From Polynucleobacter sp. TUM22923 (lineage in GTDB: Bacteria > Pseudomonadota > Gammaproteobacteria > Burkholderiales > Burkholderiaceae), in contig NZ_AP027274.1 in the NCBI RefSeq assembly GCF_030295705.1, positions 992,001 through 1,056,000 on the forward strand: a DNA stretch of 64,000 nt, read 5' to 3'. Shown here piece by piece: positions 5,525 to 27,202 of this stretch. The notes under the pieces were generated by a model, which saw only the letters and a program-made list of their open reading frames with translations, was not told the origin of the DNA and ran no database searches. Position 1 is the first letter of the stretch, and the number at the start of each line of letters is the position of its first letter. The position numbers and the translations under genes are program-made.

Positions 5525-5578
5525 TAGTTTCATTAGCCCTTAGTGGGCTTCAGTCTTTACAACAAAGAAGGAGTCAAT

Positions 5579-6280
5579 ATGAGCGATCTAAACTCTTACG
5601 GCTTCGGGCAAACCGGCTCGATTAGCACCCCCCAGATACGTAACCGCGTACTGCGTAATACCTACGCTCTTTTAGCGCTATCAATGGTTCCTACTGTCAT
5701 TGGGGCCTGGCTTGGCGTTGCTTTGGGCCTAAACTTCATGAAAAGTAGCCCTTTTATGGGTTTCATCGTATTTATGGCGATTGCTTTTGGCTTTTTCTGG
5801 GCAATCGAGAAGAATAAAGAAACCGGTCTAGGCGTTCTCTTGCTACTGGGCTTCACCTTCTTTATGGGCATCATGATGTCCGGCTTAGTGGGCTACACCC
5901 TTAATAGCTACAGTAATGGTGCGACATTGATTATGCTGGCCTTTGGTGGTACGGCAGCCATTTTTGCAGTAATGGCAACCATTGCCACGGTCAGTAAAAG
6001 CGATTTTTCTGGCATGGGCAAATGGCTCATGGTTGGTGTTCTACTCTTGATCGTAGCTTCCCTAGCGAATATCTGGCTACAGTTACCAGCCCTGATGTTG
6101 ACAGTAATGGTACTGGCTATCGGTATCTTCTCTGCCTTCATTTTGGTGGACGTCCAGCGCATTATCAATGGCGGTGAAACCAATTACATCATGGCCACCT
6201 TAGCTATCTACCTAGATGTGTACAACATCTTCACTAACTTACTCGCATTATTGGGTATCGTTGGAGGCGACCGAGACTAA
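5579..6280 (+). CDS. Bax inhibitor-1/YccA family inner-membrane protein
   Basis: From the ATG at 5579 the protein is 233 residues (MSDLNSYGFGQTG...), with about seven hydrophobic helices and the acidic C-terminal region typical of the BI-1 (UPF0005) family. E. coli YccA modulates FtsH proteolysis of membrane proteins; whether this homologue does the same is inference. The frame is open to 5543, but a strong ribosome-binding site (GAAGGAG, 5567-5573) sits 5 bases before the chosen ATG. A candidate promoter lies at 5498-5524 and a bidirectional terminator at 6333-6360. It is a single-gene transcript divergent from ndk. Confidence 0.9.
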   Translation: MSDLNSYGFGQTGSISTPQIRNRVLRNTYALLALSMVPTVIGAWLGVALGLNFMKSSPFMGFIVFMAIAFGFFWAIEKNKETGLGVLLLLGFTFFMGIMMSGLVGYTLNSYSNGATLIMLAFGGTAAIFAVMATIATVSKSDFSGMGKWLMVGVLLLIVASLANIWLQLPALMLTVMVLAIGIFSAFILVDVQRIINGGETNYIMATLAIYLDVYNIFTNLLALLGIVGGDRD

Positions 6281-23201: not shown

Positions 23202-23858
23202 ATGTCCCAAGCCATTATTTTTGATGTTGAAGCAACCGATAAAAACAATGCGGTCATTATTGAAGCGGCATCCCTAGATGTCGTATCGATTCAGCCGCTG
23301 GAAGTCTCCAATCCTTGGGTGCAGCGCTTTAACCCAGGCAAACCTATTAGCTTAGGTGCTTTAGCGACCCACCACATCCTGGATGAAGAGCTAGTCAACT
23401 GCCCCTCTAGTAGCTCATTTAGATTGCCTACTGATACGAAATATATTATTGGCCACAGCATTGATTTTGACTGGGAGGCTATTGGCAGTCCTGAGGTCAA
23501 ACGGATTTGTACTTTGGCGCTAGCCCGTAGTCTTTGGCCAGAACTCGATAGTCATACGCAAAGTGCCCTACTATATTTCTTTGAAAGAGCTACTGCGCGA
23601 GAGCAACTACGTGATGCACACAGTGCATTAGCAGACGTCGGTATTTGCTCGAAGATTCTAGGGCACATTTTGGATAAGCTTAAGCCATCCTCTTTAGATG
23701 CTTTATGGGAGATGTCTGAGAAGGCTCGCGTACCAACCATCATGCCTTTTGGTAAACACAAAGGTGAGCCCATTAGCCAAGTTCCTAAAGACTATAAACA
23801 ATGGATGCTTCGGCAGGATAATGTGAACGCTTTTTTACGCAAGGCCTTAGAAGCCTAA
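23202..23858 (+). CDS. DnaQ-fold exonuclease, exodeoxyribonuclease X-like
   Basis: A 218-residue protein with an RNase-T/DnaQ 3'-5' exonuclease domain. Motif I is IIFDVEATD (Asp, Glu), motif II is IIGHSIDFDW, and motif III is LRDAHSALADVGI (His and Asp). The C-terminal part IMPFGKHKGEPISQVPKDYKQW is the small ExoX-type tail domain also known from DUF3820 proteins. E. coli ExoX acts in mismatch repair and UV tolerance. Here it is next to (convergent with) the SOS umuDC operon, which makes a DNA repair role plausible. Confidence 0.86.
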   Translation: MSQAIIFDVEATDKNNAVIIEAASLDVVSIQPLEVSNPWVQRFNPGKPISLGALATHHILDEELVNCPSSSSFRLPTDTKYIIGHSIDFDWEAIGSPEVKRICTLALARSLWPELDSHTQSALLYFFERATAREQLRDAHSALADVGICSKILGHILDKLKPSSLDALWEMSEKARVPTIMPFGKHKGEPISQVPKDYKQWMLRQDNVNAFLRKALEA

Positions 23859-23877
23859 TTGACATTGACCCCTACTC

Positions 23878-23916
23878 GGGGAGTAAGGAATCCGTGATTT
23901 CCTCATTCCCCTTTTC
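23878..23916 (+). terminator. Intrinsic terminator after the ExoX-like gene
   Basis: GGGGAGTAAGGAATC and GATTTCCTCATTCCCC form a long, slightly imperfect stem followed by CTTTTC. It lies 20 bases after the stop codon. On the other strand the same hairpin lacks a T-tract, so it is a weak candidate to end the SOS operon transcript. Confidence 0.7.
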
Positions 23917-23924
23917 TGAGCTAC

Positions 23925-23957
23925 TGCTTACTGCCTGCTTGCTGCCTTCTTGCTGCC
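23925..23957. repeat. Three 11-bp tandem repeats downstream of the SOS operon
   Basis: Units TGCTTACTGCC, TGCTTGCTGCC and TTCTTGCTGCC lie head to tail, with degenerate copies (TACTTACC, ACCGCTTACT, CCGCTTAATGC) continuing to about 23995. On the minus strand this reads GGCAGCAAG(A/C)A. No coding function is apparent. The block fills the space between the small ORF at 23996 and the terminator. Confidence 0.75.
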
Positions 23958-23995
23958 TACTTACCCGTCTACCGCTTACTAGTGCCGCTTAATGC

Positions 23996-24127
23996 TTACC
24001 GATATTTGCTGCTAAACACCTGTTGCTTTGTTTGCTCGTAACGCTTCGTACTTTTTAGTACTGCACAGTAAGATAAAACGATGATGATTGCTAAAGAGAT
24101 GCCGTTAAAGTTATTTAATAGTTCCAT
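23996..24127 (-). CDS. Small membrane peptide (43 aa), third gene of the SOS umuDC operon
   Basis: This small ORF encodes 43 residues beginning MELLNNFNGISLAII. A single hydrophobic segment (about residues 10-24) is followed by a strongly basic tail (KSTKRYEQTK... ending SSKYR). An excellent ribosome-binding site, AAGGAG, sits 6 bases before the ATG. It begins 36 bases after the umuC stop on the same strand, so it is probably expressed from the LexA-controlled promoter at 25961-25980. I recognise no family. The architecture resembles SOS-induced membrane peptides such as TisB in general outline only; small inner-membrane regulators of other kinds are equally possible. Confidence 0.6.
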   Translation of the reverse strand: MELLNNFNGISLAIIIVLSYCAVLKSTKRYEQTKQQVFSSKYR

Positions 24128-24162
24128 GTAATTCTCCTTGTTTAATGTTTGTCATTAGTCAG

Positions 24163-25464
24163 TTATTGCACTACTGGTAATTCATTCCACTGAGTGGTGT
24201 AATTTGGGGATCGATTGGCTGAGCGCATCTGCCAATCTTGTTGAGTGCCAGATGCGGCCGTTCTAAGCACTGCGTTACCAAAGCGGCTGTTAATGGAGTC
24301 CAGTGCCTTCATTAGATGAGCAGATCTTCCCTTGACTTCCATATCATCAAATAAGGATTGTTGTACTGTTGGCTTATCTGCTAGACAGCTGAGCATCACT
24401 CCAGCCTTTTTATATTTAAAGCCTGTCTTATAAATTTGCTTTAAGCCTTTGAGAGCTGCCGTCGTTAATGTGAGCGTGTTATCACTGGGGTCAGCCAAGG
24501 CAATCGTGATGCTTTGATGATGCTGTGGCTCGTATTGTTTGTGGGGATTTGTTTGCACAAAGATCGTGAGTGAGCCCGTGACTGATTTTTGACTACGGAG
24601 TTTTTCTGCGCCCCTAGCAACGTGGGTAGCAACAGATTCAGCTAACTGCTCCATTGCCTCAACAGACTTACCAAAACTACGTGAAGAAACAATCTGCTGC
24701 TTGGCTGGCACTACTTCGTCTAGCTGCAAGCAAGAGACACCTCGTAACTCGTAACAAATTCGTTCGATCACTACGCCAAACTGTTGACGCATAGATTGTG
24801 GCGACACCTGAAAGAGATCAAATACAGTATTAATATGCAGCACTCTCAGCTTCTTGGTCAGCTGCTTGCCGATACCCCATACCTCACCTACTGGTGTTTC
24901 TGTCATCCACTGATAGAGCATTTCATTAGGCATCGAGCTGACATCACACACGCCTGCAAACTGCGGGTGTTTTTTTGCTAAATGATTGGCTAACTTTGCT
25001 AGTGTTTTACTAGCACCAATACCAACGCAAACTGGTAAGCCCGTAGTATCTTTAACTTGTTGCTTAATGACTTGGCCCAAATGACTTGGATCGGTATATT
25101 GCTTGAGTACTGCCTCAATTGCCAAAAAACTCTCGTCAATACTGTAAACCTCAAGATTGGGGGTAAAGGTTTTTAAGACCTCTACTACCCTGTCACTCAT
25201 ATCGCCATATAAAGTGTAGTTTGATGAATACGCTTGAATACCATGCTTTTTAGCTAGCTCTTGCATCTGAAACCAAGGGGTGCCCATTTTGACGCCAAGC
25301 GCTTTAACTTCCGCGCTACGGGCTACTGCGCAACCATCATTATTCGATAGCACCACCATGGGCACAGCCTCTAACTTTGGAGCGAATACCCGCTCGCACG
25401 ATACATAGAAATTGTTGACATCGACTAGGGCAAAAAGTTGACCTGCTGGCATCTTGCTATTCAT
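24163..25464 (-). CDS. umuC: DNA polymerase V catalytic subunit UmuC (Y family)
   Basis: Error-prone translesion polymerase of 433 residues. The N-terminal palm has [17 protein letters not shown] with the first catalytic Asp, and [11 protein letters not shown] carries the second acidic pair. The finger/thumb region has [20 protein letters not shown], and the helix-hairpin-helix is [15 protein letters not shown]. The C-terminal LQTQ-like tail region ([21 protein letters not shown]) is the DUF4113 domain found in UmuC. The start overlaps the umuD end by 4 bases, so translation is coupled. Confidence 0.96.
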
Positions 25465-25955
25465 AGCGACTTACCATTTCGACTGCTGGCATGGCTATAT
25501 TTACGAACTACGCCTACCACTACACCCCAAATTTGGAGCTCACTGTTCTCATTGAAGGTAATAGGCTCGTAGTGTGGATTTTCTGGCTGGAGCTCGATAC
25601 GACCTCGTGACTGATAGAGGCGTTTGATGGTGTATTCACTATCAACGACGGCAACCACGATATCTTTGTGTTTTGGCTTGAGGGCTTTATCGACCACCAC
25701 TTTGTCCCCATCACAAATACCCGCGCCCATCATTGAATCCCCTTGTACGGTAAACATGAATGTGGCTGGCTTGTTCTGGACTAAGTAGCTATTTAAATCG
25801 AGGCTTTTTTCAGCATAATCAGCGGCTGGACTCGGAAATCCTGCTGAAATACGGTGACTGAGCAGCGTCAATTCAAAAGTAGAATAGGCTTCTATGCCCT
25901 GTGGGGCCTGAGTTAGTGTCACTTTTGGAGGGATTGCTTGGGTCGTCATAGTCAT
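25461..25955 (-). CDS. umuD: SOS mutagenesis protein UmuD (S24 peptidase)
   Basis: LexA-like serine protease that self-cleaves on RecA filaments to UmuD', which joins UmuC in Pol V. The cleavage site is A38-G39 in [12 protein letters not shown] (Cys-Gly in E. coli UmuD), the nucleophile is S74 in [10 protein letters not shown] and the general base is K111 in YTIKRLY. Two ATGs, 25955 and 25949, are possible. The operator ends only 5 bases upstream of the first, and no Shine-Dalgarno is visible, so the mRNA may be leaderless or nearly so. Confidence 0.95.
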
Positions 25956-25960
25956 TAATA

Positions 25961-25980
25961 TACTGTATGTTTATACAGTA
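25961..25980 (-). promoter_or_regulatory. LexA (SOS) operator of umuDC
   Basis: TACTGTATGTTTATACAGTA contains the full CTGT-N8-ACAG palindrome of the proteobacterial LexA box, with matching outer TA pairs. It lies directly before the umuD start codon, where bound LexA would block transcription. No other copy was noticed in the window. Confidence 0.93.
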
Positions 25981-26134
25981 TATGTAAAAACATTAAAAAT
26001 GACCTAGTTTTTGTTGTTTTGACCTCTGGTAACCCGACGCTCTACCCATAAACCCTAAGATCTTTAGCTAGCAAGCGCCCTCATAATGAAATTACTGCAT
26101 TCCTTCATTCAAAGAAAATAGCTCCAGGAGACCC

Positions 26135-27202
26135 ATGAAGACTTACCAAATCGCCTCAATTCCAGGTGATGGCATCGGCAAAGAAGTCGTTCCAGAGTGC
26201 GAGAAGGTATTAAATGCCTTAAGCAAACAACATCCTGAAGTCGCCTTTGCATTCGAACGTTTTGATTGGGGTGGTGACTACTACCGCAAACATGGCGTCA
26301 TGATGCCAGCTGATGGTCTTGAGCCTTTGCGCACCAAAGATGCCATTTTATTTGGCTCAGCTGGTGATCCCGATATTCCAGATCACATCACACTATGGGG
26401 TCTACGCCTTAAGATCTGCCAAGGATTTGATCAATACGCCAATGTCAGACCTACTCGCATATTGCCTGGTATTGAAAGCCCTCTACGCAATTGCAAACCC
26501 AATCAACTCGACTGGGTCATCGTACGTGAGAACTCAGAAGGTGAATACTCTGGTGTGGGTGGCAGAGCGCACCAAGGGCATCCGATTGAAGTCGCCTCTG
26601 ATATGAGCATCATGACGCGCGTTGGTGTAGAGCGCATACAACGCTTTGCATTTCAGTTAGCGCAGTCTCGCCCTCGCAAACATTTAACAGTAATCACCAA
26701 ATCAAATGCCCAGCGCCATGGCATGGTGATGTGGGATGAAATTGCTCGCCTGGTTGCCAAAGACTTTCCGGATGTCACCTGGGACAAGGAATTGGTTGAT
26801 GCAGCTACTGCACGTATGGTCAACCACCCAGAATCCCTTGATACGATTGTTGCAACCAACTTGCATGCTGATGTGCTCAGTGACTTGGCGGCTGCACTGG
26901 CTGGTAGTCTGGGTATTGCGCCCACTGCTAACCTAGATCCGGAGCGCCGCTATCCATCTATGTTCGAACCGATTCATGGGTCTGCATTTGACATCATGGG
27001 TAAAGGACTTGCCAATCCCATTGGTACCTTTTGGTCGGCTGTCATGATGCTCGATTTCTTAGGTGAAAAAGAGCTCGCTAAAAAACTGATGAAGGCCATC
27101 GAAGCCGTCACCATAAATCCTAAATTACATACTCTTGACTTAGGGGGTACTGCCATGATGAGTGATGTTACTAATGCAGTTATTAAGGAGATTTCTAAAT
27201 GA
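26135..27202 (+). CDS. Tartrate/D-malate dehydrogenase (isopropylmalate dehydrogenase family)
   Basis: NAD-dependent beta-decarboxylating dehydrogenase, 355 residues. The N-terminus IASIPGDGIGKEVVPE, the substrate loop RPTRILPGIESPLRN, VIVRENSEGEYSGVGG, the ITKSNAQRHGMVMWDE segment and metal-binding DVLSDLAAALAGSLGIAP place it in the tartrate dehydrogenase (TTUC) branch; LeuB would have different loop residues. D-malate and L-tartrate are typical substrates. The stop codon overlaps the start of a Bug solute-binding protein gene (ATGA), suggesting that the partner captures the same or a related organic acid. Confidence 0.88.
   Translation: MKTYQIASIPGDGIGKEVVPECEKVLNALSKQHPEVAFAFERFDWGGDYYRKHGVMMPADGLEPLRTKDAILFGSAGDPDIPDHITLWGLRLKICQGFDQYANVRPTRILPGIESPLRNCKPNQLDWVIVRENSEGEYSGVGGRAHQGHPIEVASDMSIMTRVGVERIQRFAFQLAQSRPRKHLTVITKSNAQRHGMVMWDEIARLVAKDFPDVTWDKELVDAATARMVNHPESLDTIVATNLHADVLSDLAAALAGSLGIAPTANLDPERRYPSMFEPIHGSAFDIMGKGLANPIGTFWSAVMMLDFLGEKELAKKLMKAIEAVTINPKLHTLDLGGTAMMSDVTNAVIKEISK

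Follow-up and report, generated by a model that had tools for sequence, protein, structure and literature searches.

A conserved third gene of the umuDC operon in Polynucleobacter encodes a predicted single-helix membrane peptide, a candidate SOS division-checkpoint factor

Background

Small membrane proteins that inhibit division during the SOS response have been described in distant bacterial groups, i.e., SidA in Caulobacter, YneA in Bacillus and SosA in Staphylococcus. According to two papers (PMC4211646, PMC13396833), damage-induced small membrane proteins act on FtsW or FtsN in several bacteria, and didA of Caulobacter, the named target of the WYL-domain activator DriD, encodes one of these. 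The WYL regulators PafBC and DriD are described as activated by single-stranded DNA (ssDNA) in PMC11804915 and PMC12340889. The DriD site (ATACGAC-N7-GTCGTAT) overlaps the -35 region, and driD is divergent from the operon which DriD activates. Another kind of SOS-linked product is TisB of E. coli, a short hydrophobic peptide.

The locus analyzed here belongs to Polynucleobacter sp. TUM22923 and shares features with each of these systems. Like the umuDC operons of E. coli and others, it has umuD and umuC with a LexA box; unlike them, it has a conserved third cistron, coding for a peptide of 43 residues. Similar to SidA, YneA and SosA, this is a small, single-span predicted membrane protein under LexA, from bacteria in which SulA is lacking or plays no leading part as inhibitor, but it differs from these in that its gene is the third umuDC cistron, its target is only proposed, and it lacks a LysM or other domain, being likened to them by description and not by sequence. 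With DidA it shares its nature as a small membrane protein. The dyad found at 39 of 87 related loci resembles the DriD site in its 7-N7-7 spacing and constant distance to the -10 hexamer, and the relatives often have their WYL gene and a small operon in divergent orientation, as with driD; however, the dyad has other letters, the relatives' regulator matches PafBC better than DriD-like PDB chains, the peptide gene is also LexA-controlled, regulator and site do not co-occur, and the stretch of DNA analyzed has neither. TisB is likewise short, hydrophobic and SOS-linked, while the peptide is set apart from it by strongly constrained polar positions, its place in the umuDC operon and an open ribosome site.

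The first-pass annotation knew of no family with the order umuD-umuC-small peptide, and our searches of openly licensed papers showed no description of either the peptide or this order, nor anything on WYL control or the SOS response in Polynucleobacter. We thus present as new, on the evidence of sequence comparison, the conserved third cistron of umuDC and the putative WYL-linked dyad and promoter in the umuC-peptide gap of 39 of 87 relatives.

The umuDC operon and its third gene

The window, i.e., the whole 64-kb stretch of DNA that was analyzed, lies in a genome of 1.86 Mb (G000), the named relatives of which are Polynucleobacter. UmuD and UmuC are encoded side by side on one strand (Table 1), the latter being recognized by Pfam (IMS, IMS_C, DUF4113) and by NCBIfam PRK03609 above its cut-off, the former by Pfam Peptidase_S24 and by NCBIfam PRK10276, also above cut-off.

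Table 1. Features of the umuDC operon and of the peptide gene, in window coordinates
Feature	Position	Strand	Evidence
Third operon gene, coding for a 43-aa predicted membrane peptide with a single helix	23996..24127	-	ORF, conservation, pN/pS, AlphaFold2 model
Hydrophobic stretch ISLAIIIVLSYCAVL, residues ~10-24 of the peptide	24056..24100	-	Sequence, model helix, per-site conservation
umuC-peptide gap, 35 nt, short class, without GCTCA-N5-TGAGC and without terminator-like site on the operon strand	24128..24162	-	
AAGGAG ribosome-binding site, 6 nt before the peptide ATG	24134..24139	-	Sequence; AAGGAG/AGGAG in 84/87 loci
umuC, DNA polymerase V catalytic subunit, 433 aa	24163..25464	-	Pfam, NCBIfam
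umuD, self-cleaving subunit, 164 aa, 4-nt overlap with umuC	25461..25955	-	Pfam, NCBIfam
LexA palindrome TACTGT-N8-ACAGTA before umuD	25961..25980	.	Pattern match; same box in relatives

The core pattern CTGT-N8-ACAG has a single exact match in the window, immediately before umuD, and in 64 kb one such match would be expected nearly as often by chance (mean 0.67). This match, however, exceeds the bare core, as it extends to the perfect palindrome that had been noticed in the first reading and is kept in relatives: it lies about 1.8 kb ahead of the umuC stop in 57 of the 57 loci that reach so far (the remaining 30 of 87 being too short to tell), and in the set of named loci it occurs in 65 of 66 with at least 2150 bases upstream, or 65 of 65 if those linked to umuC are counted, the single exception being a stand-alone copy of the peptide without umuC (L206). 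SOS control of the peptide gene is well supported by this sequence evidence, since the perfect palindrome precedes umuD at all 65 umuC-linked loci. Because the box is conserved, the gap short and the operon strand free of terminator-like sites (window 23700-26150), umuD, umuC and the peptide gene are predicted to share a single transcript. A genome-wide scan for LexA boxes was too loose to be of use (624 matches, with more in the control).

Two side observations concern the palindrome. It ends 5 nt before the first ATG of umuD with no ribosome site in between (window 25955-25980), hence umuD may use a leaderless transcript or a later start. A second perfect TACTGT-N8-ACAGTA is present elsewhere in the window's genome (G000:C1:146735-146754, L208).

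The peptide ORF starts with ATG, and the AAGGAG described earlier at 6-nt spacing was found as reported, while the distance from the umuC stop, given as 36 bases, measured 35 nt. The first description of one hydrophobic helix and a basic tail also agrees with our results: the tail has six K/R and one E (counted by eye), and AlphaFold2 placed a single helix with its best confidence at residues 11-20, although the model as a whole (mean pLDDT 72.9, pTM 0.40) is usable just for the presence of the helix. Sequence and this modest-confidence model together support the prediction of a small single-helix membrane peptide. No family matched it in Pfam, NCBIfam or PADLOC, and its only PHROG match was to a family without assigned function (E 0.099). 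The label "unannotated" is only partly right, as its relatives are already carried in public records as "hypothetical protein". Downstream of the peptide, a convergent gene on the other strand encodes a 218-residue protein for which Pfam gave a short QSregVF_b match only.

Conservation of the peptide gene

Strong matches to the peptide (E <= 3.6e-9) were found in 92 of 151 genomes of the genus, and matches at E <= 1 in 95, with G001, G069 and G078 having weak ones only. UmuC was detected in 137 of the 151 (E <= 1e-30), and the peptide followed its identity closely: where UmuC was >= 74% identical, 90 of 92 genomes carried the peptide, the two others having an N run behind umuC (G148) or a partial umuC match (G083, residues 8-180), while none of the 45 genomes with UmuC <= 71% had a strong match, and no relative of the peptide was seen in the umuC-downstream DNA of 19 of these 45. 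In every one of the 87 loci that hold both genes the peptide lies downstream of umuC on the same strand. The loss of frame, start or ribosome site that the first-pass annotation proposed to look for in close relatives was not the pattern observed, since all 87 loci have an ATG, preceded by AAGGAG in 49, by AGGAG in 35 and by a weaker site in three, with the reservation that the start was chosen among in-frame starts partly by the ribosome site; these counts leave out three genomes with strong matches (G022, G067, G136), as well as one further G021 locus, a second copy. A pattern scan through the genomes of 84,980 species and viral contigs returned 70 loci, overlapping with the 87-locus set, and the umuC-peptide order was present in 69 of them.

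Selection on the protein was estimated from 43 disjoint close pairs. The core of 25 residues has a pN/pS of 0.075 and the tail one of 0.324, whereas each of the two wrong frames gives 1.35; umuC itself reached 0.090 (38 of the 43 pairs). Out of 299 nucleotide differences in the core, 227 fall on third codon positions, and the near-invariant residues include a polar NNFNG motif, a Ser-Tyr within the helix and the pattern Ser-Tyr...Leu-Lys. Judged by these comparisons the 43-codon ORF is a genuine protein-coding gene, and the earlier claim that it forms the third gene of a LexA-controlled umuDC operon is borne out by its position (87/87), the pN/pS of its core and the LexA box (65/65). An order-wide sample of 399 genomes contained seven with a match (E <= 0.01), all of Polynucleobacter, and in a family sample of 398 genomes matches outside the genus were partial, with E of 0.0026 or worse. 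A profile search matched 285 proteins, of which the best 120 were inspected, so more distant members may have escaped notice.

A predicted second promoter in related strains

The gap between umuC and the peptide falls into two classes, a short one of 25-72 nt (48 loci, window included) and a long one of 106-227 nt (39 loci). GCTCA-N5-TGAGC/T was present in 39 of 39 long gaps vs. 0 of 48 short ones, and in its extended form this dyad reads CTAGCTC-N7-GAGCTAG, with its centre about 19 nt before a -10-like hexamer. The hexamer TA[AT][TC]CT stands 10 nt after the 17-mer in 37 of 39 long gaps (shuffle mean 0.4), and all 35 named loci with a dyad, among them the stand-alone L206, have TATTCT, TAATCT or TAACCT at this +10 position, so that in the relatives the dyad covers the -35 region at a constant distance from the -10 element. 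We conclude that dyad and hexamer probably form a second promoter before the peptide in 39 of the 87 loci, as predicted from sequence. The constant distance to the -10 hexamer makes a transcription terminator a less likely reading of the dyad than a promoter; directly after TGAGC there are zero to four T, with four in 13 of 39 loci. GCTCA-N5-TGAGC is absent both from the window and from G000 as a whole, so that by sequence LexA is the only route to the window's peptide.

The pattern AGCTCATTTYRTGAGCT has 40 occurrences, spread over 37 of the 151 genomes, and its reversed control has none. By position, 30 of these sites are in the umuC-peptide gap, and the ten others are placed between the gene of a WYL-domain regulator and that of a 61-residue membrane protein (four), before another WYL regulator (one), before a peptide of 31 or 32 residues (three), before the stand-alone peptide of G095 (one), and inside a longer ORF, where it looks like chance (one, L269). 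Among 35 non-peptide ORFs next to dyad sites, picked by script and including near copies, the strict hexamer was found at +10 in 16 (shuffle mean 0.5, maximum 3), and in the hexamers of such ORFs A at position 2 and T at the last position round to 1.0.

Mapped on a umuC tree of 85 rows (L025 and L065 left out), the long or short state of the gap required 22 changes, at least 12 of them on well supported branches. Two loci, L008 and L010, have a near-identical UmuC. Beyond the umuC stop they no longer agree, one having a long gap with dyad, the other a short gap, together with different peptides, as if the 3' module had been swapped by recombination. On genomic islands, dyads were seen between a WYL regulator or other gene and the 61-residue membrane protein (L358 8238, L360 3702, L363 9719, L364 5788, L365 3102, L366 9097), and these islands contain further dyads, located before small secreted, vWA-like and unknown proteins. 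A dyad is also located before a membrane peptide of 31 or 32 residues beside an HNH-like gene (L274 2232, L276 2262, L271 1616, L275 3440). The genomes concerned lack a strong match to the window's peptide, of which this one may be a counterpart.

WYL-domain regulators as candidate readers of the dyad

Of 29 WYL genes, 25 have GCTCA-N5-TGAGC in the 200 bp upstream, compared with 2 of 9000 shuffled pieces, the 29 being those with a recognised start in 30 loci and including some near copies. Four lack it in the sequence read (L287, L299, L307 and L298, the last with just 82 bp available). The regulators are 323-326 aa long and their best PDB match is PafBC (4.9e-17), followed at about 2e-6 by 8tp8 ("DeoR-family transcriptional regulator") and 9pfq ("WYL domain-containing protein"), both of which we tentatively take to be DriD. 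In seven genomes (G047, G096, G082, G065, G059, G098, G061) the regulator is 2 to 32 kb away from the umuC-linked peptide.

The distribution of regulator and dyad over the genomes does not follow this picture. A match to the WYL regulator was present in 18 of 39 dyad genomes vs. 17 of 48 others (Fisher p = 0.38), leaving 21 of the 39 without a cognate regulator match in the same genome; counting near-intact regulators only, the figures were 16 of 39 vs. 14 of 48 (p = 0.27), and tree-controlled pairs gave no association either (median p 0.625). A search with PF13280 added just G000 and G019 to the list, and the only WYL protein in the window's genome is of another kind. The link between WYL regulators and the dyad is weakened by this lack of co-occurrence, and the idea of one WYL regulator reading every dyad was not borne out. 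Perhaps the regulator is gained and lost more rapidly than its sites, or else the dyads are read by another protein. The predicted second promoter probably allows the peptide to be switched on apart from umuDC by a further signal, which may likewise be DNA damage.

Stand-alone copies and decayed loci

In G103 and G106, where UmuC had no match at E <= 1e-30, the peptide frame is decayed as well, the usual start codon being gone in the former and a stop present in the latter. G117 (L065) has a umuC match in two pieces and an intact peptide frame, and the peptide of G023 (L067) has only 34 residues. Copies away from umuC were found in G095 (L111/L206) and G016 (L090/L112/L366), each with a dyad upstream and TATTCT at +10, and both genomes also hold a umuC-linked copy. 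Within these sets, every intact copy of the peptide with readable upstream DNA is located behind a LexA box, a GCTCA-N5-TGAGC site, or both. The stand-alone copy in G016 has 33 residues (L112 ~5569-5661, minus strand; L090 2001-2087, minus strand) and lies behind a dyad, between integrase-like and cytosine-methyltransferase-like genes of an island (by eye). The single match on viral contigs (L207 1126-1254) comprises umuC, the peptide and the convergent gene beside phage-like genes (by eye), and because of this neighbourhood it is probably host DNA adjoining a prophage.

Discussion

The best explanation for the peptide, offered tentatively and by analogy, is that it serves as an SOS-induced division-checkpoint factor in the manner of SidA, YneA and DidA. 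We chose this role because damage-induced small membrane proteins acting on FtsW or FtsN exist, because didA is a target of DriD, and because a search for SulA gave nothing above the family cut-off in 101 genomes, with two sub-threshold matches (G016 and G079). Upon DNA damage, RecA on ssDNA would bring about the self-cleavage of LexA and thereby the synthesis of the umuD-umuC-peptide transcript. The peptide would then enter the inner membrane as one helix, with the N-terminus predicted outside and the basic C-terminus inside, where the NNFNG and Ser-Tyr...Leu-Lys positions may contact a membrane protein rather than just form a pore. By analogy only, the likeliest partner would be the septal machinery FtsW/FtsI/FtsN, and division would be delayed while Pol V copies damaged DNA. 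The WYL-linked second promoter would add a separate route in 39 of 87 relatives, with the LexA route alone in the window. Several results speak against such a checkpoint: the SulA search drew no line between genomes that have the peptide and those that lack it, all 45 genomes with UmuC <= 71% live without it, none of the sequence matches was to a known division inhibitor (SidA, DidA, YneA and SosA being likened by description only), and the joint decay of peptide and umuC in G103 and G106 would suit a role with Pol V too.

The main rival is such a role, in which the peptide would keep UmuC (or UmuD2C) bound to the inner membrane up to the cleavage of UmuD, thereby limiting mutagenesis. The tight link of the peptide with UmuC >= 74% and its absence at <= 71% are in its favour, and according to PMC4552617 the inner membrane is where E. 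coli UmuC is retained at first, before UmuD cleavage; the decay in G103 and G106 fits as well, though promoter loss alone would do likewise. Against it, two copies of the peptide are away from umuC behind a WYL-linked promoter (both genomes keeping a umuC-linked copy), the frame is intact in G117 where the umuC match is split, and a separate promoter at 39 of 87 loci would uncouple both products. We consider an anchor for Pol V unlikely. A further rival, rather unlikely in our judgement, is some other membrane stress function within a WYL-linked regulon that includes the 61- and 31-residue membrane proteins, the place behind umuC being a second route of expression. Such a function could account for the same dyad and -10 spacing before other small membrane or secreted proteins, but those regulon members have themselves no assigned function, and 48 of the 87 loci, including that of the window, have no such site before the peptide, so that LexA control alone suffices to keep it.

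A small size, one hydrophobic helix, a basic tail and the link to LexA would also be expected of a TisB-like peptide, which would depolarise the membrane during the SOS response and promote persistence; an action on the membrane was among the possibilities raised in the first-pass annotation. This is not favoured because NNFNG and the in-helix Ser-Tyr are nearly invariant, and such polar positions suggest a specific contact; a strong ribosome site next to the start also argues against it, and we regard depolarisation as improbable. Finally, a chance ORF without product would explain the shortness of the frame and its lack of a Pfam or NCBIfam match, but conservation, fixed position, the excess of third-codon-position changes and pN/pS led us to reject it, leaving it practically no credit.

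Taking the checkpoint reading one step further, a damage checkpoint peptide specific to this genus might answer to two independent alarms, LexA acting through umuDC, and a WYL activator, frequently carried on islands, that would sense ssDNA and act via a plug-in promoter. Beside umuC this promoter would have undergone at least 12 gains, losses or exchanges; we propose this with considerable doubt. For a freshwater genus in which SulA was not detected above cut-off, the peptide is a small candidate for delaying division during DNA repair. The natural variation beside umuC yields a likely WYL operator and its promoter geometry, and sister strains differ in having the peptide under LexA alone or under both promoters. 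If the two-alarm reading is true, such sister strains would be natural experiments in which one checkpoint is moved between two damage sensors.
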